Assembly: GCA_017465475.1 (NCBI GenBank)
Contig: JAFTWC010000007.1
Location: 1 to 50,654, forward strand
Direction of reading: 5' to 3'
Length of the DNA stretch: 50,654 bases
From: Lachnospiraceae bacterium
GTDB lineage: Bacteria > Bacillota > Clostridia > Lachnospirales > Lachnospiraceae
This document shows positions 4,091-50,654 of this stretch, piece after piece. The notes under the pieces are model-generated. The model was not told where the DNA came from. It saw only the letters and a list, made by a program, of their open reading frames with translations, and did not search any database. The position numbers were made by a program, and so were the translations under genes. The first letter of the stretch is position 1. Every line of letters begins with the position of its first letter.

Positions 4091-6280
4091 ATGGCAATTA
4101 AGTATAATGAGAATAGTAAGAGTTTTCAGTTAGATACAAAGGGAGCGTCTTATGTTATCGGAATTGCGGACGCAGAAGGTTTTGCGGGACATGCGTATTT
4201 CGGTAAGAAGCTGGGAGACGATGATGTGACTTATTTGATGAGAGCGGGAGAGCATCCGTTTACACCGGAAACAAATGCCAGGGACAGACTTTCTTTCTTA
4301 GACTGTTTTCCGATGGAATATCCCACAGGCGGTGTGGGAGATTTCCGTGAAAGTGCCGTTGTGGTGAGGAGCAGCACCGGTCACAGAGCGTTACAGCTCA
4401 CGTTTGAAAACTACAGCATTTATAAGGGGAAGAAGCCGTTAGAAGGGCTTCCGGCCACCTGGGGAAGCGAAGAAGATACCGAGACGTTAGAGCTTTCGTT
4501 GACCGACAAGGTGTTAAAGGTAAAAGCTGTACTTTCCTACAGCATTTTTGAGGGCATCGATGCGGTGGTCAGAAGTGTGAAGTTAGTGAATGAAAGCAAT
4601 GAACCGGTATTTATTGAGCGCATTATGTCCGCGTCCATGGATATGGATAACAAGGAATACGACAAGATTTTACTTACCGGTTCCTGGGCAAGAGAACGTC
4701 ATATCAACAGAACCCCGGTCAACTACGGTGTGCAGAGTATGTCTTCCGTAAGAGGGGAAGAGGGACATCAGACTCATCCTTTTATGGCGCTTTTGGATAA
4801 GACGGCCACCGAGGATACGGGGGATGTGTACGGTATGAACCTGATTTATTCCGGTAATTTCTTAACTCTGGCAGACAGAGGACAGTTTGATACGGTACGT
4901 TTTATGACGGGCATTAATCCGGAAGGGTTTTGTTGGAAATTAAATCCGGGAGATAGTTTTCAGACTCCGGAGGCAGTGTTGGTGTACTCTGCGGAAGGCT
5001 TAAACGGTATGAGCCATGCCTTCCATGATTTGTACAGAACCCATTTGATTCGGGGAGAATACAGAGATAAGAAGCGACCGATTTTAATTAACAACTGGGA
5101 AGCAACCTATTTTGATTTTAATACGGAAAAGCTTCTTGCGATTGCAAGAGAGGCCTCAAAGCTCGGCATTGAAATGTTGGTAATGGATGACGGTTGGTTC
5201 GGAAACCGCTTCGATGACAACCGTGCTTTAGGCGATTGGTTTGTAAATGAAGAAAAGCTCCAAGGCGGCTTAAAGTACTTGGTAGATGAAGTGAATAAGT
5301 TAGGTATGAAGTTCGGTATCTGGCTGGAACCGGAAATGATCAGCCCGGATTCCGATTTGTACCGGACACATCCGGATTGGGCCATTCAGGTGCCGGGCAG
5401 AACTGCCGGTCTTGCCAGAAACCAGTATGTGCTGGATATGTCCAGAACCGAGATTCAGGATTATATTTTTGATTTGGTGGCAGGCATCCTAAGAAGTGCC
5501 AATATTGAATACGTAAAGTGGGATATGAACCGGCCGCTTGCGGATATTGGAAGCTACGCGCTTACTGCAGAGTGTCAGGGAGAATTGTTTCACCGGTATG
5601 TATTAGGTGTGTACCGTCTGCAGGAACGACTGGTGACGGAGTTCCCGCATTTGCTGTTGGAAAACTGCTCCGGCGGCGGTGCCAGATTTGATGCAGGAAT
5701 GTTGTACTACAGTCCGCAGATTTGGTGTTCCGATGATACGGATGCTATTGAGCGTTTGACCATTCAGGAAGGTACGGCACTGATTTACCCGTTATCTGCC
5801 ATGGGAGCTCACGTCAGTGATTGCCCGAACCATACGGTGGGCCGTGTGACTCCGTTTGAAACCAGAGGGTATGTAGCTCTGGCCGGTACCTTCGGGTATG
5901 AGCTGGATGTGACAAAGATTCCGGAGGAAGACAGAAAGATGATTCCGGAGCAGGTGGCCATGTATCATAAGTACAATGACTTGGTACGGACCGGTGATTA
6001 TTACCGCATTGCCTCTTATCGGGAGAACCACATGTATGACTGTTATATGGTGGTGGCAAAGGATAAGTCGGAAGCATTGGTGACCTTTATTCAGGTCATG
6101 GGAAGACCGAACTCCCGCTCCAGACGGATTTTGTTAACAGGCTTGTGCCCGGAGAAAACCTACCGTATCGAAGGGGAAGACCGTACCTATTTGGGAAGTA
6201 CTCTTATGCAGGCAGGCATATTGGTAGGAAATATGTGGGGAGATTATAAGGGCAGGTTGATTCATCTGGTGGAAGCTTAA
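4091..6280 (+). CDS. Alpha-galactosidase, glycoside hydrolase family 36
   Basis: Retaining alpha-galactosidase of 729 residues, the usual length of the bacterial tetrameric GH36 enzymes, acting on melibiose, raffinose, stachyose and related alpha-1,6-galactosides. There is an N-terminal beta-sandwich (about 1-325), then a TIM barrel with NNWEATYFDF, MDDGWFG and WLEPEMI. The nucleophile is Asp478 in KWDMNR. The acid/base lies in SDDTD (Asp548 and neighbours), next to LLENCSGGGARFD, which shapes the -1 site; these positions line up with the classical Geobacillus AgaA enzyme. A C-terminal beta domain follows. There is no signal peptide, so it is cytosolic and the sugar must be imported; no transporter is in the window. 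AGGAG lies about 10 bases before the ATG. Confidence 0.95.
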   Translation: MAIKYNENSKSFQLDTKGASYVIGIADAEGFAGHAYFGKKLGDDDVTYLMRAGEHPFTPETNARDRLSFLDCFPMEYPTGGVGDFRESAVVVRSSTGHRALQLTFENYSIYKGKKPLEGLPATWGSEEDTETLELSLTDKVLKVKAVLSYSIFEGIDAVVRSVKLVNESNEPVFIERIMSASMDMDNKEYDKILLTGSWARERHINRTPVNYGVQSMSSVRGEEGHQTHPFMALLDKTATEDTGDVYGMNLIYSGNFLTLADRGQFDTVRFMTGINPEGFCWKLNPGDSFQTPEAVLVYSAEGLNGMSHAFHDLYRTHLIRGEYRDKKRPILINNWEATYFDFNTEKLLAIAREASKLGIEMLVMDDGWFGNRFDDNRALGDWFVNEEKLQGGLKYLVDEVNKLGMKFGIWLEPEMISPDSDLYRTHPDWAIQVPGRTAGLARNQYVLDMSRTEIQDYIFDLVAGILRSANIEYVKWDMNRPLADIGSYALTAECQGELFHRYVLGVYRLQERLVTEFPHLLLENCSGGGARFDAGMLYYSPQIWCSDDTDAIERLTIQEGTALIYPLSAMGAHVSDCPNHTVGRVTPFETRGYVALAGTFGYELDVTKIPEEDRKMIPEQVAMYHKYNDLVRTGDYYRIASYRENHMYDCYMVVAKDKSEALVTFIQVMGRPNSRSRRILLTGLCPEKTYRIEGEDRTYLGSTLMQAGILVGNMWGDYKGRLIHLVEA

Positions 6281-6323
6281 GCGGCTTTTGAGGATATATT
6301 ATGATAGGAGGAACAATACGGGT

Positions 6324-7190
6324 ATGGGATTGGAACAGAAGAAAACCGGCCTGGTGTTAGAAGGCGGAGCTATGCGGGGGATGTACACCGCAGGTGTTTT
6401 GGATGTATTTATGGAGCAGGGAATTACCTTTGACGGGGTGATTGGTGTTTCCATGGGAGCAATTACCGGATGCTCTTATGTATCCGGACAGATGGGAAGA
6501 ACCGTTCGGTATAACAAGAAGTATTGTAAAGATAAACGCTATATGAGCTTTTACAGTCTTTTGACCACCGGGGACTTGGTGGGGAACCGGTTTTGTTATC
6601 ATGAAATACCGGAAAAGCTGGATTTGTATGATAACGAAGCTTTTAAGAAGTCTCCCATGGACTTTTATGTGACCTGTACCAATGTGGAAACCGGAGAAGC
6701 CGAATACATTAAGATAAAGGATATGGTAGAAGAAATGGACTATTTGCGCGGGTCTGCCTCCATGCCTTATGTGTCACGCATTGTAGAAATGGGCGGAAAG
6801 AAACTCCTTGACGGTGGTTGTAGTGACAGTATTCCCGTTCGTGCATTTCAAAAGATGGGCTATGAGAAAAATGTAGTGGTTCTCACAAGACCGGCGGAGT
6901 ACCGAAAAAAGCCGGAGAATAAACGACTGGTACGGATGTTTTATAAGAAGTATCCGAGGTTTGCGGCCACGTTAGAACGCCGGGCAAAGGTGTATAATGA
7001 GACGGTAGAGGAGATTCAAAGATTAGAGGCGGACGGCAGTATTTTTGTGATTCGGCCGGAAACACCGTTAGACATCGGAAGAATGAGTCATGACGTGAAA
7101 AAAATAGAGGAGGCCTACGAAAGAGGTCGTGCAGACGGACGGACGTGTCTGTCGGCACTGATAAAGTGGCTGAATTCTGACAAAAAGTAG
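6324..7190 (+). CDS. Patatin-like phospholipase family protein
   Basis: Serine lipase/acyl hydrolase of 288 residues, of the YjjU/RssA-like bacterial patatin group. It shows the oxyanion loop GGAMRG (residues 11-16), the nucleophile elbow GVSMG with Ser43, and the catalytic Asp163 in LLDGGCSD, so the Ser-Asp dyad is complete. There are no transmembrane segments or signal peptide. ATG 6324 is preferred because AGGAGG is at 6306-6311 and the conserved KTGLVLEGG starts right after; an upstream in-frame TTG at 6288 has no ribosome site. It follows the alpha-galactosidase closely and may be co-transcribed. The natural substrate is unknown; a role in membrane lipid turnover is the usual assumption. 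Confidence 0.9.
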   Translation: MGLEQKKTGLVLEGGAMRGMYTAGVLDVFMEQGITFDGVIGVSMGAITGCSYVSGQMGRTVRYNKKYCKDKRYMSFYSLLTTGDLVGNRFCYHEIPEKLDLYDNEAFKKSPMDFYVTCTNVETGEAEYIKIKDMVEEMDYLRGSASMPYVSRIVEMGGKKLLDGGCSDSIPVRAFQKMGYEKNVVVLTRPAEYRKKPENKRLVRMFYKKYPRFAATLERRAKVYNETVEEIQRLEADGSIFVIRPETPLDIGRMSHDVKKIEEAYERGRADGRTCLSALIKWLNSDKK

Positions 7191-7257
7191 TCCGGAAAGC
7201 AGTAAGCAAAGCTTTTAGCTCGACTTGAAAACGTGAGAGCCGGAAAGGAGATTTTTT

Positions 7258-7812
7258 ATGAATCGAAGACAACCCACAACAGTGTTACAGTGGTTAAGAA
7301 TATATCGTCTGTATCAGTCGGCTTTCCCAAACAACGAAAAGAAGCCTTTTTCCATGATTCGTTCCATGTACAAAAAAAGGAAAAGCGATGTTTGGTATTT
7401 TGAAGAAGACGGAATATTTGCGGGACTGGTAATTACCATCAACGGTCCGGACAAGGTGCTGCTTGACTATCTGGCGGTGTCAAAGAACCACCGGGGGAAA
7501 GGGTTCGGCTCCGGGATACTACGGCAGATGCGGGAACAGTATGACGGAAAAGGGGTCTTTCTGGAAATTGAAACGGTTAGGGAAGACGCAGACAATTACG
7601 AGGAACGGAAACGCAGAAAACAGTTTTATCTTTCCAACGGAATGGCAGAGTTAAAGGTGTATGTGGAATTGTTTGGGGTGGAGATGGAACTGCTGGGCTA
7701 TGATTGTATCCTTACCTTTGAAGAGTATCACGACTTTTATCGGGATAATTATAATGCCTGGGCAGCGGAGCATGTGAAACGTGCAAATAACAGAGACACC
7801 GAAAATGTATAA
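7258..7812 (+). CDS. GNAT-family N-acetyltransferase
   Basis: 184 residues, cytosolic. The acetyl-CoA pyrophosphate loop is visible as HRGKGFGSGILRQM (about 80-93, Q/RxxGxG type), preceded by LLDYLAVSKNHR on the beta4 strand and followed by FLEIETV and a FYLSNGMAELKV segment typical of beta6-alpha4. These support GNAT-type acyl transfer to an amine, but give no clue to the substrate. AAAGGAG sits about 8 bases before the ATG. It is followed by a clear terminator, so it ends a likely unit running from the kinase or DAHP synthase. Acid and basic residues alternate heavily near the C-terminus, with no added domain. Confidence 0.85.
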   Translation: MNRRQPTTVLQWLRIYRLYQSAFPNNEKKPFSMIRSMYKKRKSDVWYFEEDGIFAGLVITINGPDKVLLDYLAVSKNHRGKGFGSGILRQMREQYDGKGVFLEIETVREDADNYEERKRRKQFYLSNGMAELKVYVELFGVEMELLGYDCILTFEEYHDFYRDNYNAWAAEHVKRANNRDTENV

Positions 7813-39507: not shown

Positions 39508-41247
39508 TTATTCATCTTTTAATTGGAACTGTGCAACCAGCTCGTGCATGGCGGTAGCTTGTGCGGATAATTCTTCGCTGGTGGCGAAGGATTCTTCCGC
39601 AGCGGCGGAATTGGACTGCACGATTTCGGAAATGCGGGAGATACCGATATTTGCCTGTTCAACAGATTCTGCCTGCACCTGAGAATTCTCGGACAGGGCC
39701 TTGGAAGTTTCCGCAATCTTCTGGATAGCATCTACCACGCCGGTTAATACATCCGCAGTCTTGTAAGCAATCTTGCTGCCTTCGCCGATTTCGTATAAGG
39801 TGTTGTTGACCAGTTCTCTGGTGCCTACTGCCGACTGGGCACTTTGCTCAGCCAACTGACGAATCTCATCTGCAACTACGGCAAAACCTCTGCCGGCTTC
39901 TCCGGCTCTTGCTGCTTCGATGGAAGCGTTCAAGGAGAGGAGATTGGTCTGGCTGGCGATGCTCTCAATTTCTGCGATAATATTTTCAATCTTTTTGGAA
40001 GTTACATTGATGCGGTTCATGGATTCCACCATGTTGTGCATCTCATCATAACTGAGCTTTGCATCATTTGCGCAACGGAGTGCCTGCTGATACGCTTCTT
40101 CCACACTGGTAACGGTGTGTTTCAAACCATCGGAAACCGTATCCATGGTAGCCAGCATTTCCTGGACGGAGGCAGCCTGATCGGTAGCACCTTCGGCAAG
40201 ACTTTGTGCAGCTTCTGCCAGGTTGCTTGCACCGGTGTTGACCTGATCGGAAACGGATTCGACTTCCCGTAATGCATGGCTTACATTGCTGCTCATTTCA
40301 TTGATGGAAACAAACAAAGCTTCCAAATCACCGCAGTAAGCATCCGCACAATCGGAAGTGGCGCTAAAGTTACCGTTACTCATCTCTCCGGCAAGTCGTT
40401 CAATGTCAAGAATAATCATTTGCAGACGTTCTGCCATGTCATGAGAGGAATTCATAAGTCCTGCGATTTCATCCTCGGCGGTGGAGGTAGGGAACGGAGT
40501 CTTAATATCACCCTTTGCAAAGGAATCAAACCGATCCTCAAGCTGGGCAAGCGGTTTTGAGATACCTTTGGAGATAATATGTGCAATTCGCTTGGAAATG
40601 ACTGCAGTGACGATAACAAGTACCACCATCAGGACGATGGCTGCGGTTTCCAGTACCTCACAAACCACTTCCATGTCATGTTCCTTATCGATGTTAATCT
40701 GCATCAGTTCTAAGGTGGCTGTATCCAATGCATCATAAAGCGGAGTCAATTCGTCGATTGCCATATACTGCGCCTGACGGCAACGCTCCTGGTCGGTGGT
40801 AGCACCAAGGGCAATGACTTCTGCTTCTTTTTTTAAGTACGCTTTTAAGGCCTCTTCTATTTTTGCATAGGCGGCTTCACCTTCTTTAGTTACAATGGTG
40901 GACTTGATGTCTTCCAATCGGGCATATGTATTGGCTACACGGGTATCGTGCTTAGTTACCAGAAGATCAATCTGTGCCTGGTCTTCGTAGCCGATGATAC
41001 CTCGCATGTTGGAACGACATTCTGCATATTCATTCATAAACAATGCAATATCACCTTGCGGTAATGCATAATTTTTCATGGCCCGCTCAAAGTTTGAAAC
41101 CACAACAATGAGACAGAGAATGCCGATAACCAGGCCTGCGGAAGCAATGGAAATGATGATGTTGAAGGCTTTTCTAAGTCTTTCCTCGATGCGCAGTCCC
41201 TTGAAGTTCAACAGTTTCGTTTTCTTTTTTTTCTTTTCTTTATCCAT
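39508..41247 (-). CDS. Methyl-accepting chemotaxis protein with four-helix-bundle sensor
   Basis: 579 residues. A basic cytosolic start (KEKKKKKTK) precedes TM1 (about 29-50). The outside region of some 160 residues is predicted helical with [28 protein letters not shown], typical of 4HB_MCP sensors. TM2 is about 212-235, then HAMP ([23 protein letters not shown]) with an extra linker, and the signalling hairpin tip [40 protein letters not shown]. The C-terminus lacks a CheR-tether pentapeptide. It is expressed from its own minus-strand promoter, with an inverted repeat in the leader. The ligand is unknown. Confidence 0.93.
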
Positions 41248-41276
41248 AAAATACTCCTTCCTTTCCTTAATTATCC

Positions 41277-41302
41277 ATATTCTGAATAAAAATGCAGAAT
41301 AT
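41277..41302 (-). other. Inverted repeat in the chemoreceptor leader
   Basis: ATATTCTG and CAGAATAT, 8-bp perfect arms with a 10-base loop, lie between the minus-strand -10 and the start codon. It could be an RNA hairpin or protein site. Confidence 0.5.
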
Positions 41303-41337
41303 ATGAAATTGCATTAAGAAAATGATTTTATGACTTT

Positions 41338-41366
41338 ATTATAACACAAAATTGAGAAAACAACAA
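41338..41366 (-). promoter_or_regulatory. Sigma-A promoter of the minus-strand chemoreceptor
   Basis: On the minus strand TTGTTG, 17 bases, TATAAT. The leader to the ATG is about 85 bases. Confidence 0.7.
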
Positions 41367-41462
41367 ATGAATTATCAGATAATATGGTGGGTAATTAGTC
41401 CTATTTTGGACTGCTAGAAGTTGGGGGGAACATATCCCACGTATAAAAGTTAAACGAGGAGG

Positions 41463-41507
41463 ATGCAACTAAAAATAGTTGCATAATAAAGTGGGTTATG
41501 ATATACT
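41463..41507 (+). promoter_or_regulatory. HicAB promoter with palindromic operator
   Basis: TTGCAT (41479-41484), 17 bases, TATACT (41502-41507). The perfect inverted repeat ATGCAACTA-AAAA-TAGTTGCAT (41463-41484) covers the -35, where the HicB antitoxin would be expected to bind for autorepression. A smaller hairpin AGTCC/GGACT lies at 41397-41412. Confidence 0.75.
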
Positions 41508-41531
41508 ATATATAAAGGGGGAGTATTATAG

Positions 41532-41783
41532 ATGAGTCAGAAGGATAAATTAGTAGCGAGACTGTTAAAGAAACCGAAAGATTTTACATTTGATGAAATG
41601 GTTTCATTGTTGGCATATTTCGGATATAATTTGAAACAGGGCGGAACCGGTTCCGGTGTGAAATTTACGAGGAATAACAGCAATGAGGTGATTAATTTTC
41701 ATAAGCCACACCCTAATGGAATAATGAAAAAATATGTGTTAGACCAGGTGGTAGAAAAGTTGCGAAAGGATGGTTTGTTATGA
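41532..41783 (+). CDS. hicA: HicA-family toxin (mRNA interferase)
   Basis: 83 residues, a double-stranded-RNA-binding-like fold. The conserved core VKFTRNNSNEVINFHKPHPNGIMKKYVLDQVVEKL carries the catalytic His in the FHKPHP segment. LLAYFGYNLKQGGTGSGVKF matches the N-terminal strand and helix of the family. HicA toxins cleave mRNAs in a ribosome-independent way, arresting growth when the antitoxin is lost. It precedes the antitoxin and overlaps it by 4 bases (ATGA), the classical hicAB order. GGGGGAG lies about 10 bases before the ATG, and the operator palindrome overlaps the promoter. Confidence 0.9.
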   Translation: MSQKDKLVARLLKKPKDFTFDEMVSLLAYFGYNLKQGGTGSGVKFTRNNSNEVINFHKPHPNGIMKKYVLDQVVEKLRKDGLL

Positions 41784-42112
41784 GTAATGTATTATCATAC
41801 AAAAACTATAACGGAACAGTAGAGTATTCGAAAGAGGACCACTGTTTATTCGGCAAAGTAATCGGATTAAAATCTCTGCTTTCTTATGAGGGAAATTCCG
41901 TGCAGGAGTTGGAAGAAGATTTTCAAAATGTAATTGATGAGTATTTACAAGATTGTAAGGAGAGGAATGTTGCACCGGAGCAGCCGTATAAAGGCTCCTT
42001 CAATGTACGAATCAGTCCGGAGTTGCATAGAACCGTTGCGATTTATGCAATAGAAAACGGAAAGAGTTTAAATGCCACGGTGGAAGAAGCATTAAAATGT
42101 TATGTGGGTTAG
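41780..42112 (+). CDS. hicB: HicB-family antitoxin
   Basis: 110 residues. The N-terminal partially degraded RNase-H-like fold spans about 1-65 (YNGTVEYSKEDHCLFGKVIGLKSLLSYEGNSVQELEEDFQNVIDEYLQDC). The C-terminus is a ribbon-helix-helix DNA-binding motif (GSFNVRISPELHRTVAIYAIENGKSLNATVEEALKCYV, about 74-110). It should neutralise HicA and repress the operon through the palindrome at 41463-41484. Its start overlaps the toxin stop, so the two are translationally coupled. The longer HicB type with C-terminal RHH is the common arrangement in Firmicutes. Confidence 0.92.
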   Translation: MSNVLSYKNYNGTVEYSKEDHCLFGKVIGLKSLLSYEGNSVQELEEDFQNVIDEYLQDCKERNVAPEQPYKGSFNVRISPELHRTVAIYAIENGKSLNATVEEALKCYVG

Positions 42113-46021: not shown

Positions 46022-46050
46022 TTGCCATTTTCCCCTCTTTCATGTACAAT
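46022..46050 (+). promoter_or_regulatory. Sigma-A promoter of holA
   Basis: TTGCCA, 17 bases, TACAAT, 58 bases before the ATG. Bases 45883-46021 show no gene. Confidence 0.7.
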
Positions 46051-46108
46051 AGATGGGTACGTTAAGTGTACCGTTTCGTTTATGGTGTACCACGGTAAAG
46101 GAGTGCCT

Positions 46109-47086
46109 ATGAAGGGAATTAAGGAGCATATCAAAACCGGGCAGTACAAGACCGTATACTTGCTTTACGGGTCGGAAACGTATCTGCGCCGCCTCTATAC
46201 TTCCAAATTAAAGGTAGGAGCCCTGGCAGGGGGAGATACGATGAACCTGTCTGTGTTCTCCGGCAAAGATACCGACTGGAACGAAGTTCGGAATCTGGCG
46301 GAAACCATGCCTTTCTTTGCAGACCACCGCGTGATTGTTCTGGAGAATACCGGAGCCTTTAAGAATGCCTGTGATTTTGCGGATGAGATAGAGAACCTTC
46401 CGGACACTGCGGTACTCATATTTAACGAGTCCGAGGTGGACAAACGAAGCCGGATGTTTAAGGCTGTGAAGGACCACGGTTATGTGTGTGAAATGAATGG
46501 CCTTAGCGAAGATGACTTAAGCGTATGGGTTGCCCAGCTTTTAAACAAAGACGGGAAGAAAATCAGCCGTGATGATTTGCGGATGTTTTTGGAGCGTGTC
46601 GGCTCCGACATGGAGAATGTGGAAACCGAAGTGGAAAAGCTGGTTTGCTATATCGGCGACCGGGAGGTGGTCACGAAGGAAGACATTCTGACCGTAACGA
46701 CGGAGCAGATTTCCGGTAAGATTTTTGCCATGACCGATGCTCTCGGTGCAAAGAACAGAAAGCTTGCTTTGGAACTGTACCACGACTTACTTTCCGTGCG
46801 GGAAAAGCCGATGACGGTACTGTACCTTATGGTGCGCCAGTGCAATATGATATTGCAGGCAGCGGAGATGAACCGGCAGGGTCTTGACCGTTCCGCTATC
46901 GCATCCAAAGCCGGAATGCCACCCTTTGCGGTAGGCAAATGCCTGTCCCAGGCAAAGAACTTTACAAAAGAACAGCTTCTGCATCTGATTACCTACGGAA
47001 CAGAGCTTGAGGAGCAAATCAAAACCGGACGCATCGACGAGCGCATCGCAGTAGAACTTTTCCTGCTCACCGCCGTCGGCGCATAA
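46109..47086 (+). CDS. holA: DNA polymerase III subunit delta
   Basis: 325 residues, the clamp-loader delta subunit that opens the beta clamp. The N-terminal AAA+-like region (about 15-190) has TVYLLYGSETYLRRLY, LAETMPFFADHRVIVLENT with the Phe-rich clamp contact, DTAVLIFNESEVDKRSRMFKAVK and SEDDLSVWVAQLLNKDGKKIS. The C-terminal collar domain covers about 210-325 (TEQISGKIFAMTDALGAKNRKLALELYHDLL to RIDERIAVELFLLTAV). ATG 46109 with AAAGGAG 6 bases upstream is preferred to in-frame ATGs further up. In many Clostridia holA follows comEC directly; here about 9 kb separates them. Confidence 0.95.
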   Translation: MKGIKEHIKTGQYKTVYLLYGSETYLRRLYTSKLKVGALAGGDTMNLSVFSGKDTDWNEVRNLAETMPFFADHRVIVLENTGAFKNACDFADEIENLPDTAVLIFNESEVDKRSRMFKAVKDHGYVCEMNGLSEDDLSVWVAQLLNKDGKKISRDDLRMFLERVGSDMENVETEVEKLVCYIGDREVVTKEDILTVTTEQISGKIFAMTDALGAKNRKLALELYHDLLSVREKPMTVLYLMVRQCNMILQAAEMNRQGLDRSAIASKAGMPPFAVGKCLSQAKNFTKEQLLHLITYGTELEEQIKTGRIDERIAVELFLLTAVGA

Positions 47087-47129
47087 CAATGGATGGGTAC
47101 TACAGCATACGCTGTTACCATAAATATTC

Positions 47130-47215
47130 GGAGACGTATCGAAGAGGCCGTAACGAGACTGACTCGAAATCAGTTTGCCTGCAAGGGCACGAGGGTTCGA
47201 ATCCCTCCGTCTCCG
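47130..47215 (+). tRNA. tRNA-Ser (anticodon CGA)
   Basis: The acceptor stem GGAGACG (47130-47136) pairs with CGTCTCC (47208-47214), with discriminator G. The anticodon arm CTGA-CTCGAAA-TCAG gives CGA at 47165-47167. There is a long variable arm typical of serine tRNA, and a T arm GAGGG-TTCGAAT-CCCTC. CCA is not encoded. It lies just before an AT-rich island and may be its attachment site. Confidence 0.95.
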
Positions 47216-47226
47216 CTTTGACGAGG

Positions 47227-47256
47227 AAGGACTAGCCAAGTGGCTGGTCCTTTTTG
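47227..47256 (+). terminator. Rho-independent terminator after tRNA-Ser
   Basis: AGGACTAGCC (47228-47237) and GGCTGGTCCT (47242-47251), one G-T pair, loop AAGT, then TTTTG. The string GCGAGGAAGGACT, close to the start of this hairpin, recurs about 45 bases later. The remaining bases up to 47397 are purine-rich and show no gene. Confidence 0.9.
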
Positions 47257-47397
47257 TATTGGCGAGGAAGGACTGGGGAGAAGGGATTGGGTAAGTAGAG
47301 GCAAGTGTGGGAGGGGATGGGAAAGCGGGAATAAGTGCAATGGTTGAAGGTGAGGAAAGGGGGAGGTGACGACACTTGAGGATGTGATTACTTTAAG

Positions 47398-47426
47398 TTG
47401 ATTAGAATGATTCTGTATGATATAAT
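47398..47426 (+). promoter_or_regulatory. Sigma-A promoter of the island operon
   Basis: TTGATT, 17 bases, TATAAT, with an extended -10 TG. It is the only clear promoter before the three island genes. Confidence 0.75.
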
Positions 47427-47440
47427 TACATTAGAATGAT
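47401..47440. repeat. Direct repeats ATTAGAATGAT flanking the island promoter
   Basis: Exact 11-base copies at 47401-47411 and 47430-47440, 29 bases start to start (close to three helical turns). One overlaps the -35 and the other the transcription start. This suggests cooperative binding by a regulator; no regulator gene is adjacent. Confidence 0.65.
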
Positions 47441-47460
47441 GCATGGAGGATATTATAGCT

Positions 47461-48276
47461 ATGATAGATGAAAAAAAGTTTATAGATTTATGTAAATCAA
47501 AAGGATTGGCGACTTTTAAAGTAACAACAGAATTAGATGATGAAACAGATATAGTACTTGATACAGAAAACCTGGAGATGTTTTTTGAGTTGTGTAAATA
47601 CTTTGATACTAAGTGTGTTTTCTATTCCTACACAGTTCAAAATAAGGATTCTTATGAATTAGATAAGGAAGAGCTAATTGAGCATATAAAAGAATTTATT
47701 GATAACGATGAATTAAAGTATAAATACAATCCATTTGGATTTCATGATGATGTAATTAATTCGACTGCGCTATTAGAAAAATATGATTCTAAAATTGAAG
47801 AAATAATTGAGAAGCAGAAGAGGTTGTTAGAAAAATGTAGTTGGGATAAACCACTAATCTTAGAGGTATTCATATCTAATAATGGTGATAGGATTGGAAT
47901 TATTATATTCGATGAAGATGTGACAACAGAAACAGAACTTAAATGGAATGCTAAGCTAATAGATGAATTAGATAAAGAGTTAGAAAAAGATATTGAATCT
48001 ATGTATGCAGAGCATAGTAAAGCAAAAGCAGAAATGTATGAAAAAGAGCGTGAAGATCGAGATAAAAGATATAATGATGCAATTGCAGAAATAAAGAATA
48101 TCTTGCAAACAAGCGAAAAAATCTTGGAATGTACAAATGGAAAACTTCGTCATGCATATGCGAGAGATTTGGCTGACGAATATTCTGAAAGATTTGACTG
48201 CTATATAACTATAGGTACAATTGATGTGTTTGTAGAAGAGGAATATAGGAAACGTAAGAACTCAAAAAAGATTTAA
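47461..48276 (+). CDS. Unknown acidic protein, first gene of the AT-rich island
   Basis: 271 residues, not recognised. It is strongly acidic in the first 170 residues (TTELDDETDIVLDTENLEMFFELC; YELDKEELIEHIKEFIDNDELKYKYNPFGFHDD), with alternating strands and helices. A long Lys/Glu-rich coiled-coil-like stretch follows (about 170-215, ELDKELEKDIESMYAEHSKAKAEM) and a basic end (YRKRKNSKKI). There is no membrane segment or signal peptide. I prefer ATG 47461, 11 bases after GGAGG; ATG 47443 overlaps that ribosome site. Its AT-rich codons differ sharply from holA upstream, indicating recent transfer. It is probably co-transcribed with the two downstream genes; as the first gene it might be a sensor or regulator of them, which is speculation. 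Confidence 0.75.
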   Translation: MIDEKKFIDLCKSKGLATFKVTTELDDETDIVLDTENLEMFFELCKYFDTKCVFYSYTVQNKDSYELDKEELIEHIKEFIDNDELKYKYNPFGFHDDVINSTALLEKYDSKIEEIIEKQKRLLEKCSWDKPLILEVFISNNGDRIGIIIFDEDVTTETELKWNAKLIDELDKELEKDIESMYAEHSKAKAEMYEKEREDRDKRYNDAIAEIKNILQTSEKILECTNGKLRHAYARDLADEYSERFDCYITIGTIDVFVEEEYRKRKNSKKI

Positions 48277-48324
48277 CTTGTAGATTATAATGTTGAAGTG
48301 AATTATAATGAGGAGGAATTTGCG

Positions 48325-49041
48325 ATGACACTAAATGCAGATAACAATCAATATACTAAATGTTATGTGGCATTTCTAGATCTTTTGGGTTTTAGAAATA
48401 CTTTAATTAATGCTTCTTGTGAGGAAATTTTGAATGTTTTTAAGGAAATTAACAAAAATCCCTTAGTAAAAGTGTATCGAGTAGAAGAAGGCAAGACAGT
48501 GGCTATACCTGGTCCGGAATCGCTCAATTGTAAAATTATGTCTGATAGTATTTGCTTTTATATTGAAGCAGATATTCAGAATGCACTTTTTTGTTTATTG
48601 TCTTGTTGTGCGATATTTCAGGCTAAACTGTTGAAACTGGATACACCGGTTCTTGTACGAGGCGCCATTGTTTTAAATGACCTTTATGCAAAAGATGATG
48701 TTATGTTTGGTAAAGGTTTATCACAAGCGTATGAATTAGAAGAAAAAAGTGCGAAATATCCAAGAATTATTTTTACAAAGGAAACTTATGATTTGGGTGA
48801 AAAGGGAACTCAGGAACAAATTCAATCTAAAATGAGTGACTATATTTTTTGTGATGAAGACGAATATTATTGTGTAGATTATTTACCATATTTGAATGTT
48901 ATAGAGAAAAGCGAGAATGCGGAGTACTGCAAGAAGTTTTACAATCATATTATTCATGTCTTGTCAACTACAACAGATAGTTCTATTCGTGATAAATACG
49001 TTTATTTGAAAAAATATTTTTACAGGACATTTGGATTATAA
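48325..49041 (+). CDS. Divergent class III nucleotidyl-cyclase-like protein
   Basis: 238 residues, cytosolic. The opening CYVAFLDLLGFRNTL resembles the first metal-binding Asp motif of class III cyclases (FxDxxGF). KIMSDSICFYIEA could supply the second metal Asp, VRGAIVLNDLY follows, and FGKGLSQAYELEEKSAKYPRI resembles the late G-x-x-x-N/Q-x-A-x-x-L-E helix of the family. The order matches a group of poorly known cyclase-fold proteins often seen in bacterial islands. Whether it makes a cyclic nucleotide is unknown: the usual substrate-specifying Lys and Asp are not obvious. AGGAGG lies 8 bases before ATG 48325. It stands between the unknown acidic gene (48-base gap) and the DUF262 gene (40-base gap). 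Confidence 0.65.
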   Translation: MTLNADNNQYTKCYVAFLDLLGFRNTLINASCEEILNVFKEINKNPLVKVYRVEEGKTVAIPGPESLNCKIMSDSICFYIEADIQNALFCLLSCCAIFQAKLLKLDTPVLVRGAIVLNDLYAKDDVMFGKGLSQAYELEEKSAKYPRIIFTKETYDLGEKGTQEQIQSKMSDYIFCDEDEYYCVDYLPYLNVIEKSENAEYCKKFYNHIIHVLSTTTDSSIRDKYVYLKKYFYRTFGL

Positions 49042-49081
49042 AACTGAGGTTTGAGTGTTATGAACAGAAAGGAATTATAAT

Positions 49082-50654
49082 ATGCAAACAAATGATAGAC
49101 AAATAACAGAGTTAATGAAGAATATTGATGAGGGAAAAGCACAGTTACCGGATTTTCAGAGAGGCTGGGTTTGGGATGACAATAGGATAAAAGCATTAAT
49201 TGCAAGTATAACAAATAATTATCCTGTGGGTGCTGCAATGTTCTTAGAATATGGAAATGACAATATACGATTCAAATATAGAACTATTGAAGGGGTGGAT
49301 GTACAGAATGTTAGTCCTTCTGAGTTGATTTTAGATGGACAGCAGAGATTGACTTCTATTTACTCTTCGCTATATAGCAGTAAACCGGTACATACTAGAA
49401 CAGATAAGGGAAAAGATATATTACGGTATTACTATATTGATATAGAGAAAGCATTAGATACATCTGTAGACAGAGTGGAAGCGATTATTTCAGTTCCAGA
49501 GACGAGGATTATTACATCAAATTTCGGTAGAGATATTGAGCTTGATGTTTCAACACAGGATAAAGAGTTTGAACAGAAATTATTTCCATTAAACATTATT
49601 CTTGATTATATTAAAATACAGGATTGGCAAAATAAGTATTATGCTTATTCTAACTATGATGTAAATGTAATTCAAGAGTTTACAAAATTCAATAATTTAC
49701 TCGTAATGCCGACGATGCAATATAAGATGCCGGTTATTCTTCTTGGAAAAGATACTCCGAAGGAAGCAGTATGTCAGGTGTTTGAAAATGTTAATACTGG
49801 CGGTGTGTCCCTGACTGTATTTGAACTTGTTACAGCAATATTCGCAATGGATGATTTTGAATTACGAAAAGACTGGGAAGAAAAGCAAAGCACATATTTT
49901 ACCGGAGATCTGTTATCTATTATTAATGCTACGGATTTTCTGACTGCATGTACTCTGCTATCAACATATAAGAAGGGTGGAACAGTAAGTTGTAAAAAGA
50001 AAGATGTGTTGAATCTGTCTTTGGGCGAATACAAAAAATATGAGAAGGCTTTAACGGAAGGTTTTGTAGAGGCGGAAAAAGTCTTACAAGAAGAAAGAAT
50101 TTTTGTCAGTAAAGACTTGCCGTATTCTACACAGCTCATTCCGATGGCTGTATTATGTACTTTGCTTGCAGAGGGGAATCGAATAAAAATTACAAATATA
50201 AAAAATAAGATTAAGCAGTGGTATTGGTGTGGCGTATTTGGAGAGTTATATGGAAGTGCAAATGAAACTCGTTATGTAAATGATGTTGTAGGAGTTATGG
50301 ATTGGATAACGGATGAGAAGTGTCAGCCGAAGACTGTTCAAGAAGCATATTTTAATCCTACACGTTTATTAACGCTTCAATCAAGACAAAGTGCAGCATA
50401 TAAGGGAATCATGGCATTAGTACTGAAAAATCACTGTATTGATTTTATCTCGGGAAGAGAAATGGACTTTACGGTTTATAAGGCAGAATATATTGATATT
50501 CATCATGTATTCCCTATAGATTATTGTGAAAAGCAAGGGTATTCAAAGATAAAATGGAATTCAATTGTGAACAAGACACCGATTACATATTCTACGAACA
50601 GGGAAATTGGTGGCGTTGCTCCAAGTAAGTATTTAGCCAAAATAGAAACGAAAG
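49082..50654 (+). CDS. DUF262/HNH (GmrSD-type) protein, truncated by the window end
   Basis: The first 524 residues are present and the frame is still open at the last base. The N-terminal DUF262 (GmrS-like, ParB/DndB-like fold) has LPDFQRGWVW at 22-31, LDGQQRLTS at 84-92 and FENVNTGGVSLTVFELVTAIFA near 240-260, the standard nucleotide-binding and hydrolysis motifs. The C-terminal part has a DUF1524-like HNH centre: YIDIHHVFPIDYC with His474 and His475, then an Asn-containing NKTPITYSTNREIGGVAPSKYL. This is the single-chain form of GmrSD, a modification-dependent (type IV) restriction nuclease that attacks glucosylated phage DNA; related proteins occur in several defence systems. AGAAAGGAAT lies before the ATG. 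It is AT-rich like its two neighbours. Confidence 0.9.
   Translation, partial: MQTNDRQITELMKNIDEGKAQLPDFQRGWVWDDNRIKALIASITNNYPVGAAMFLEYGNDNIRFKYRTIEGVDVQNVSPSELILDGQQRLTSIYSSLYSSKPVHTRTDKGKDILRYYYIDIEKALDTSVDRVEAIISVPETRIITSNFGRDIELDVSTQDKEFEQKLFPLNIILDYIKIQDWQNKYYAYSNYDVNVIQEFTKFNNLLVMPTMQYKMPVILLGKDTPKEAVCQVFENVNTGGVSLTVFELVTAIFAMDDFELRKDWEEKQSTYFTGDLLSIINATDFLTACTLLSTYKKGGTVSCKKKDVLNLSLGEYKKYEKALTEGFVEAEKVLQEERIFVSKDLPYSTQLIPMAVLCTLLAEGNRIKITNIKNKIKQWYWCGVFGELYGSANETRYVNDVVGVMDWITDEKCQPKTVQEAYFNPTRLLTLQSRQSAAYKGIMALVLKNHCIDFISGREMDFTVYKAEYIDIHHVFPIDYCEKQGYSKIKWNSIVNKTPITYSTNREIGGVAPSKYLAKIETK

Follow-up and report, generated by a model that had tools for sequence, protein, structure and literature searches.

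A cyclase-fold gene at a variable tRNA-Ser site belongs to a subfamily that often travels with restriction systems

What does a cyclase-like gene do next to a restriction nuclease? The question arises at the end of a 50,654-nucleotide stretch of Lachnospiraceae bacterium DNA (assembly GCA_017465475.1, contig JAFTWC010000007.1; hereafter the window), where three closely spaced open reading frames (ORFs) follow tRNA-Ser(CGA) on the + strand. An earlier note on this DNA read them as a possible three-gene system of an unrecognised protein (gene 1), a divergent class III cyclase (gene 2) and a GmrSD-type DUF262/HNH protein (gene 3), in which a nucleotide signal might control the nuclease. We find that relatives of gene 2 repeatedly lie in or beside restriction gene clusters, a hint that gene 2 may be an unstudied helper of such enzymes and not one part of a fixed set of three. 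Our favoured reading, which we hold to be evenly poised between right and wrong, is a hotspot of separate mobile defence genes, in which gene 2 would be a restriction accessory and gene 3 a stand-alone GmrSD-type nuclease.

Results

A predicted cyclase fold with an altered catalytic site

Gene 2 (48325..49041, + strand) encodes a member of PHROG 23933 (E = 3.5e-27) with a predicted class III cyclase fold. Its ORF can start at 48298 or 48325, and the ATG at 48325 is preceded by GAGGAG. A Foldseek search of the predicted structure against the PDB gave 48 matches at E ≤ 0.001, all 48 of them class III cyclases, including the uridylate cyclase 8jsz. In a viral fold library one match reached E ≤ 1e-3, a Harvfovirus protein, followed by a guanylate-cyclase-domain protein. 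Sequence comparison was less informative: a profile search against PDB sequences hinted at adenylate cyclases with every E above 1, and no match was obtained in Pfam, among phages or in a single-protein search of genome contigs.

We used hhalign to set the family in register with canonical cyclases. The metal-binding aspartates D19 and D74 are invariant (27 of 27). By contrast, the catalytic Asn position holds Asn in 2 of the 27 and the Arg position holds Arg in one; the window protein has S133 and E137 there. We take these two positions to have transition-state roles. The base-choosing Lys position is variable (Lys in 5 of 27), and the family has a conserved set of its own, comprising R112, Y136, E139, R147 and K224. 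Because the two metal aspartates are kept while the canonical Asn and Arg are lost, gene 2 most likely binds a nucleoside triphosphate (NTP) without making cyclic AMP or cyclic GMP in the usual way; to judge from its residues, it is probably not a canonical cyclase. The predicted fold thus bears out the divergent class III cyclase of the earlier note, and the residue losses fit its alternative wording of a 'dead or altered cyclase'.

The same residues bear on a Pycsar-like alternative, in which gene 2 is a non-canonical nucleotidyl cyclase whose second messenger, made on infection, switches on the neighbouring nuclease. Although the invariant metal aspartates, the match to a uridylate cyclase and the conserved R112, R147 and K224, which could make another active site, would suit such an enzyme, the Asn and Arg positions are not kept and the Lys position is variable. 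No receiver for the signal is recognised either: Pfam detects no cyclic-nucleotide-binding domain in genes 1 and 3 or, within the first 25 of 132 families, among 149 proteins encoded next to gene 2 relatives, and genes 1 and 3 give no Pfam match to a cyclic-nucleotide-binding domain combined with a TIR or transmembrane (TM) receptor-effector domain. We consider this alternative improbable. Membership of Pycsar itself was rejected, there being no recognisable receptor next to gene 2 and the Asn and Arg being lost, and for the proposal that a nucleotide signal controls the nuclease neither a signal molecule nor a cyclic-nucleotide receptor was found.

Relatives of gene 2 in and beside restriction gene clusters

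The gene is patchily distributed, occurring in 11 of 299 family, 20 of 392 order and 15 of 391 class genomes (overlapping samples, each including the window's genome). We examined 27 loci first (10 from the family, 1 from the genus and 16 from the order) and then 14 fresh loci from the class. Type I restriction–modification (R-M), DUF262/GmrSD and Dnd genes were counted within three genes of the gene 2 relative, using local hidden Markov models (HMMs). Such a neighbour is present in 5 of the 27 first loci and 3 of the 14 fresh loci, compared with 1 of 60 control stretches (8/41 versus 1/60, Fisher p 0.003). The controls were placed at round coordinates of our choosing in 29 gene-carrying genomes (406 proteins), with seven genes scanned per control and six neighbours per cyclase-like gene; the sole control match (L219) resembles an rRNA methyltransferase and is probably false, yet was kept in the count. 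One cyclase-like gene was counted per locus, so that second copies in L016 and L143 do not stand separately. L148, with a broken gene, was counted and excluded from the tree described below. A D12-type DNA methyltransferase that adjoins the gene 2 relative in L207 was left out of the count. HMM seeds were drawn in part from the tested loci; in the fresh sample, the DUF262 protein of L210 was detected only when its own sequence served as a seed, and Pfam found it independently.

Pfam bears out the main neighbours. In four loci a divergent cyclase-like gene lies between hsdM and hsdS: L017 (HsdM, an HNH_2 nuclease, the cyclase-like gene ending 8 bp before HsdS, and HsdS), L094 (HsdS, cyclase-like gene, and an HsdM truncated to 178 aa ahead of a recombinase-like gene), L143 (HsdM, two cyclase-like genes, HsdS, with HsdR further down) and L201 (HsdS, cyclase-like gene, HsdM). 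In L094, L143 and L201 its reading frame runs into its hsd neighbours or stops just short of them. Elsewhere the neighbours are HsdR and GmrSD_N (L140), DndE and a PAPS-reductase (DndC-like) protein (L135), a GmrSD_N plus GmrSD_C protein with a second, weaker GmrSD_N piece (L210), and a split HsdM (L211). Three of the 149 neighbours from the first 27 loci match type I specificity models of PADLOC (first 25 of 306 models), and Pfam gives 3 Methylase_S, 2 HsdM_N, 2 GmrSD_N and 2 ArdA (first 25 of 132 families). Among the controls, PADLOC gave 14 models for 136 proteins from the first 20, none of them type I or DUF262; one protein is type II methyltransferase-like and others resemble BrxL, mad3, DinG and viperin. 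The Pfam control list (first 25 of 211 families) holds no Methylase_S, HsdM_N, GmrSD_N or ArdA.

In a tree of 56 rows, window included, the restriction-labelled rows concentrate in two supported clades, with 5 of 8 labelled in one (containing the window; support 97/90) and 4 of 4 in the other (99/90). Taken together, 9 of the 12 rows in these clades are labelled, compared with 1 of the other 44; the clades were picked post hoc and include the window. The branches leading to L017 and L210 are long. Having or lacking such a neighbour requires 5 changes on the tree, compared with 9.5 in shuffles, none of 500 of which was as low. This subfamily of gene 2 thus often travels with restriction systems of type I, GmrSD or Dnd kind. 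The link between cyclase and nuclease suspected earlier is therefore half supported, and a tie to restriction is plausible: the cyclase-like gene recurs with type I R-M, other DUF262 and Dnd genes, but in 8 of 41 loci only.

The main rival to the favoured reading is the clustering of genes in defence islands. On that account the cyclase-like gene is an independent mobile-element accessory, perhaps acting alone in defence or counter-defence, that keeps chance company with restriction enzymes and has no functional tie to them. We regard this as quite possible, if short of probable. Several observations weigh against the favoured reading and, in part, suit chance company directly. Of 41 genome loci, 33 have no restriction neighbour of the counted kinds within three genes, and the same holds for 14 of 15 distinct viral-contig loci (18 before L098, L099 and L101 were removed as copies). 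Annotated R-M or DUF262 genes are absent from the 4–5-kb flanks in all 10 plasmid records examined of 41 matching (from an incomplete gene table), and in L097–L099 and L106 the cyclase-like gene lies between phage structural genes, their roles being assigned by eye. The counted families were picked after the first 27 loci had been viewed. Clustering is usual among defence genes, and mobile content was not matched in choosing the controls. The hsd operons of L094 and L211 look decayed, since hsdM is cut short in one and split in the other. The label 'type I R-M' taken alone changes 5 times for 5 rows, as in shuffles, and partners have therefore been swapped often. Finally, PHROG 23933 has no known function, and the loss of Asn and Arg may still permit a product through other residues such as the conserved R112, R147 and K224. 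Against chance company stand the tight embedding between hsdM and hsdS, with overlapping or near-touching frames in four divergent cases, and the concentration of the association in two clades.

Other arrangements of the family were also seen. A scan of viral contigs for close relatives of gene 2 returned only L094, again as L184. In L143 (4926-7173) the tandem cyclase-like genes overlap inside one type I operon, and a pseudo-heterodimer is possible. AbiEii is next door in 2 of the 10 plasmid records examined; in the Leisingera and Ruegeria plasmids (L129:4109-5840 and L179:2250-4840) an annotated AbiEii toxin gene is followed, 13 bp on, by the cyclase-like gene. In three viral contigs (L096:496-2300, L104:3928-5687 and L108:3912-5630) a ParA-like ATPase gene, recognised by eye, directly precedes the cyclase-like gene with a 4-bp overlap or a 0-bp gap, a possible two-gene phage cassette. 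In L208 (1984-4271) an HSP90/GyrB-type ATPase gene (HATPase_c_3) begins 5 bp after a distant cyclase-like gene.

Gene 2 probably moves separately from its window neighbours

A genome of the same genus, G304, carries gene 2 at the same site with 79% identity and with other neighbours. Comparison of the two islands by blastn (E ≤ 1e-3) limits their DNA similarity to 48257..49076 (+ strand, 79%), that is, gene 2 with flanks of ~70 bp upstream and 35 bp downstream, apart from a tRNA-side stretch reaching 47328. Upstream of the gene 2 copy, G304 encodes a DUF262 protein (GmrSD_N 5.3e-29, GmrSD_C 1.3e-8) that shares 27% identity over 94 aa with gene 3 (E 0.004); both match GmrSD_N, and the two are non-orthologous. 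Downstream lie genes for DUF6037 and Abi_alpha proteins. Gene 3 has no match at E ≤ 1e-20 in the other 9 genomes of the genus, and neither gene 1 nor gene 2 occurs beside any of 25 gene 3 relatives (4.0–13.6 kb of fetched DNA each; tblastn, E ≤ 0.05).

Gene 1 (47461..48276, + strand) encodes an acidic near-orphan protein. Its ORF runs from 47443 (277 aa), and the ATG at 47461, preceded by GGAGG at 47445, is the likelier start. Nothing usable emerged from searches of Pfam, PADLOC, NCBIfam, PHROGs, plasmids or viral contigs, a single-sequence structure model was unusable (predicted local distance difference test score 43), and the 298 other family genomes yielded a single weak match (G238), in a locus that looks unrelated.

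Could the three genes nevertheless form one lineage-specific system, with gene 1 as sensor or regulator? Small gaps, a common strand and one promoter-like site ahead would agree with this, but no gene 1 or 2 was found in the DNA fetched around the 25 DUF262 relatives, the sister genome keeps gene 2 only, and gene 1 has a single weak match in the 298 other family genomes; we think such a system very improbable. The proposal of a general three-gene system, which the earlier note itself had tied to co-occurrence elsewhere, was rejected: genes 1–3 occur together in no other examined locus. That note's description of gene 1 as unrecognised holds. The genes of the island are most likely separately mobile.

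Gene 3 is a GmrSD-type DUF262 protein

Gene 3 (49082..50654, + strand) is an open frame of 524 aa, cut because the window ends with its contig. Compared with a relative of 591 aa at 91% identity (L033), it is missing ~67 C-terminal residues; intact relatives measure about 590–600 aa. It matches GmrSD_N (PF03235, E 1.2e-29) and the PADLOC models PDC-M55C (1.2e-20) and HEC-05 (3.6e-18). Its relatives in genome contigs comprise 24 proteins at 63–91% identity and one at 31%. Alignment of the window protein with 22 of these 25, three short ones being excluded, shows Q26 R27 (QR), D85–R89 (DGQQR), F234..N238 (FxxxN) and, towards the C terminus, H474–H475, N493 and N497 invariant in 23 of 23 rows. 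QR, DGQQR and FxxxN are motifs given for GmrSD proteins in the part of PMC11411939 available to us. The DUF262/GmrSD-type assignment made earlier is thus upheld, HH pair included. Pfam GmrSD_C is reached neither by the contig-cut window protein nor by full-length L033, and L036 (0.008) stays under the cut-off.

Type I R-M genes lie within three genes of 6 of the 25 relatives (local HMM, for which two of the six supplied seeds); two further HMM matches are DUF262 pieces of the gene itself. Other relatives sit behind BREX-, Dcm/Vsr- or macro-domain-like genes, identified by eye. The accessible part of PMC11411939 reports that GmrSD homologues are frequently encoded inside type I loci, and for this reason gene 3 adds another member to a kind already known from islands. 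As a stand-alone nuclease, it would be licensed by NTP bound at its DGQQR domain, allowing its HNH domain to cleave DNA that probably carries modified bases.

The gene 3 family also lies close behind varied defence-like genes (macro-domain, Dcm/Vsr and PglZ/BrxL-like by eye) in L034 and L056 (around 4572-7782), L042:2400-7773 and L052:1288-7779, a placement resembling that of a general rider of defence operons.

A variable site behind tRNA-Ser(CGA)

The window is an entire contig of a fragmented assembly, and the island is read from its proximal side. Its proximal border is tRNA-Ser(CGA) (47130..47216, + strand), directly preceded by a conserved gene that we take to be holA, for the DNA polymerase III delta subunit (46022..47086, + strand). 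We ran a holA query (46109-47083) on 61 genomes to locate the site; among the 9 other genus members, 6 gave a match, and in 5 of these 6 the tRNA adjoins holA, the sixth leaving its contig. Two of them (G306 and G115) have a conserved gene, presumably peptidase-E-like, ~0.1 kb past the tRNA, so the site is empty there. G300 and G304 carry inserts of ~8.0 and 9.4 kb between the tRNA and this same gene, which share ~1 kb beside the conserved gene and are otherwise unlike, and G299 has a different neighbourhood past the tRNA. At least 3.4 kb is inserted in the window's genome.

Base composition falls at the same point, from a G+C fraction of ~0.45 before the tRNA to 0.32–0.37 behind it. The three kilobases from 47001 to 50000 have values of 0.373, 0.318 and 0.329, while the rest of the window lies at 0.40–0.51, two kilobases excepted: 1-1000 (0.364) and 41001-42000 (0.354), the latter a second AT-rich kilobase apart from the island. 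Since the content of the site varies among same-genus genomes, the shift in base content marks a genuine border of a variable site. The composition drop and the three same-strand genes described earlier are confirmed, and the proposed island boundary at the tRNA is supported. Most likely, the stretch is the near end of a defence-gene hotspot with variable content, bounded by tRNA-Ser(CGA) and the conserved, presumably peptidase-E-like gene.

The earlier note had named an integrase and a repeat of the tRNA 3′ end as features to look for. Neither appears in the G300 and G304 islands: the best matches to the 25 bases at the tRNA 3′ end are 17 and 16 of 25, and no integrase was noticed on inspection by eye. 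These two islands thus lend no support to an integrase-driven tRNA island, and exchange of inserts through recombination in the flanks appears likelier than tRNA-targeted integration.

Gaps of 48 bp (genes 1–2) and 40 bp (genes 2–3) separate the ORFs. A promoter-like site, TTGATT-17-TATAAT with TG before the −10 element, lies ahead of gene 1 (47398..47426, + strand) as a consensus match alone, and a search for terminator-like sites between the genes found none. Such promoter-like sites show no clear excess over shuffles (23 found versus 17.2 ± 4.6), so that the single promoter once proposed for the three genes is no more than plausible.

The purine-rich spacer after the tRNA (47196-47375) resembles sequence within the G300 island (L088, oriented 5022-5190, 69%). 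Similarity to this spacer is also found behind the tRNA in G304, reaching 47328.

Discussion

In the favoured reading, a variable site has collected separate defence genes. Gene 2 would bind an NTP as a nucleotide-responsive accessory, guarding or tuning whichever restriction enzyme adjoins it, and gene 3 would act on its own. A more specific version is that the two clades are dedicated nucleotide-sensing restriction partners, placed between hsdM and hsdS or beside GmrSD or Dnd genes, which report or answer phage-caused nucleotide changes and so permit the nuclease to act, hold it back or serve as its backup, much like PrrC for EcoprrI but through other chemistry. We offer this tentatively and think it rather unlikely as it stands. 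If true, it would give an unnamed mobile gene family its first functional frame, with cyclase-fold proteins as restriction accessories, and would tie nucleotide sensing to classical restriction; small operons of the form hsdS-X-hsdM would lend themselves to testing. It would also caution against assuming second-messenger signalling wherever a cyclase-like gene adjoins a nuclease.

A limited literature search, including the accessible parts of PMC11224242, PMC10952713 and PMC13092281, found no description of a cyclase-like gene in R-M operons. DefensePredictor (PMC13092281) names a diadenylate cyclase, and we did not find the gene 2 family in the part of that paper available to us.

Among known systems, gene 3 shares QR, DGQQR, FxxxN and an HH-containing C terminus with type IV restriction proteins of the GmrSD, BrxU (HEC-05), SspE and TgvAB kind, as far as the consulted parts of PMC10952713 and PMC11411939 describe them; it differs as a separate subfamily of ~591 aa, with GmrSD_C reached neither in the window protein nor in its 91% relative L033. 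Pycsar (PycC with PycTM or PycTIR), as the available part of PMC11224242 presents it, likewise places a class III cyclase fold with two metal aspartates in a probable defence locus. Beside gene 2, by contrast, no cyclic-nucleotide receptor or TIR/TM effector is recognised, and the canonical Asn and Arg are lost (PycC itself being outside the alignment). PrrC/EcoprrI, an effector gene that lies latent within a type I R-M operon according to the portion of PMC3874165 seen, offers an analogy for a non-R-M gene inside hsd operons, although here a cyclase fold replaces the anticodon nuclease. Class III nucleotidyl cyclases (PF00211; Rv1625c, soluble guanylate cyclase) share the predicted fold and both metal aspartates with gene 2, which differs in lacking a Pfam match and the catalytic Asn and Arg and in conserving other residues. 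The entry for PHROG 23933, of which gene 2 is a member, carries neither fold nor function; to it we add a predicted fold, a pattern of conserved residues and a restriction context.

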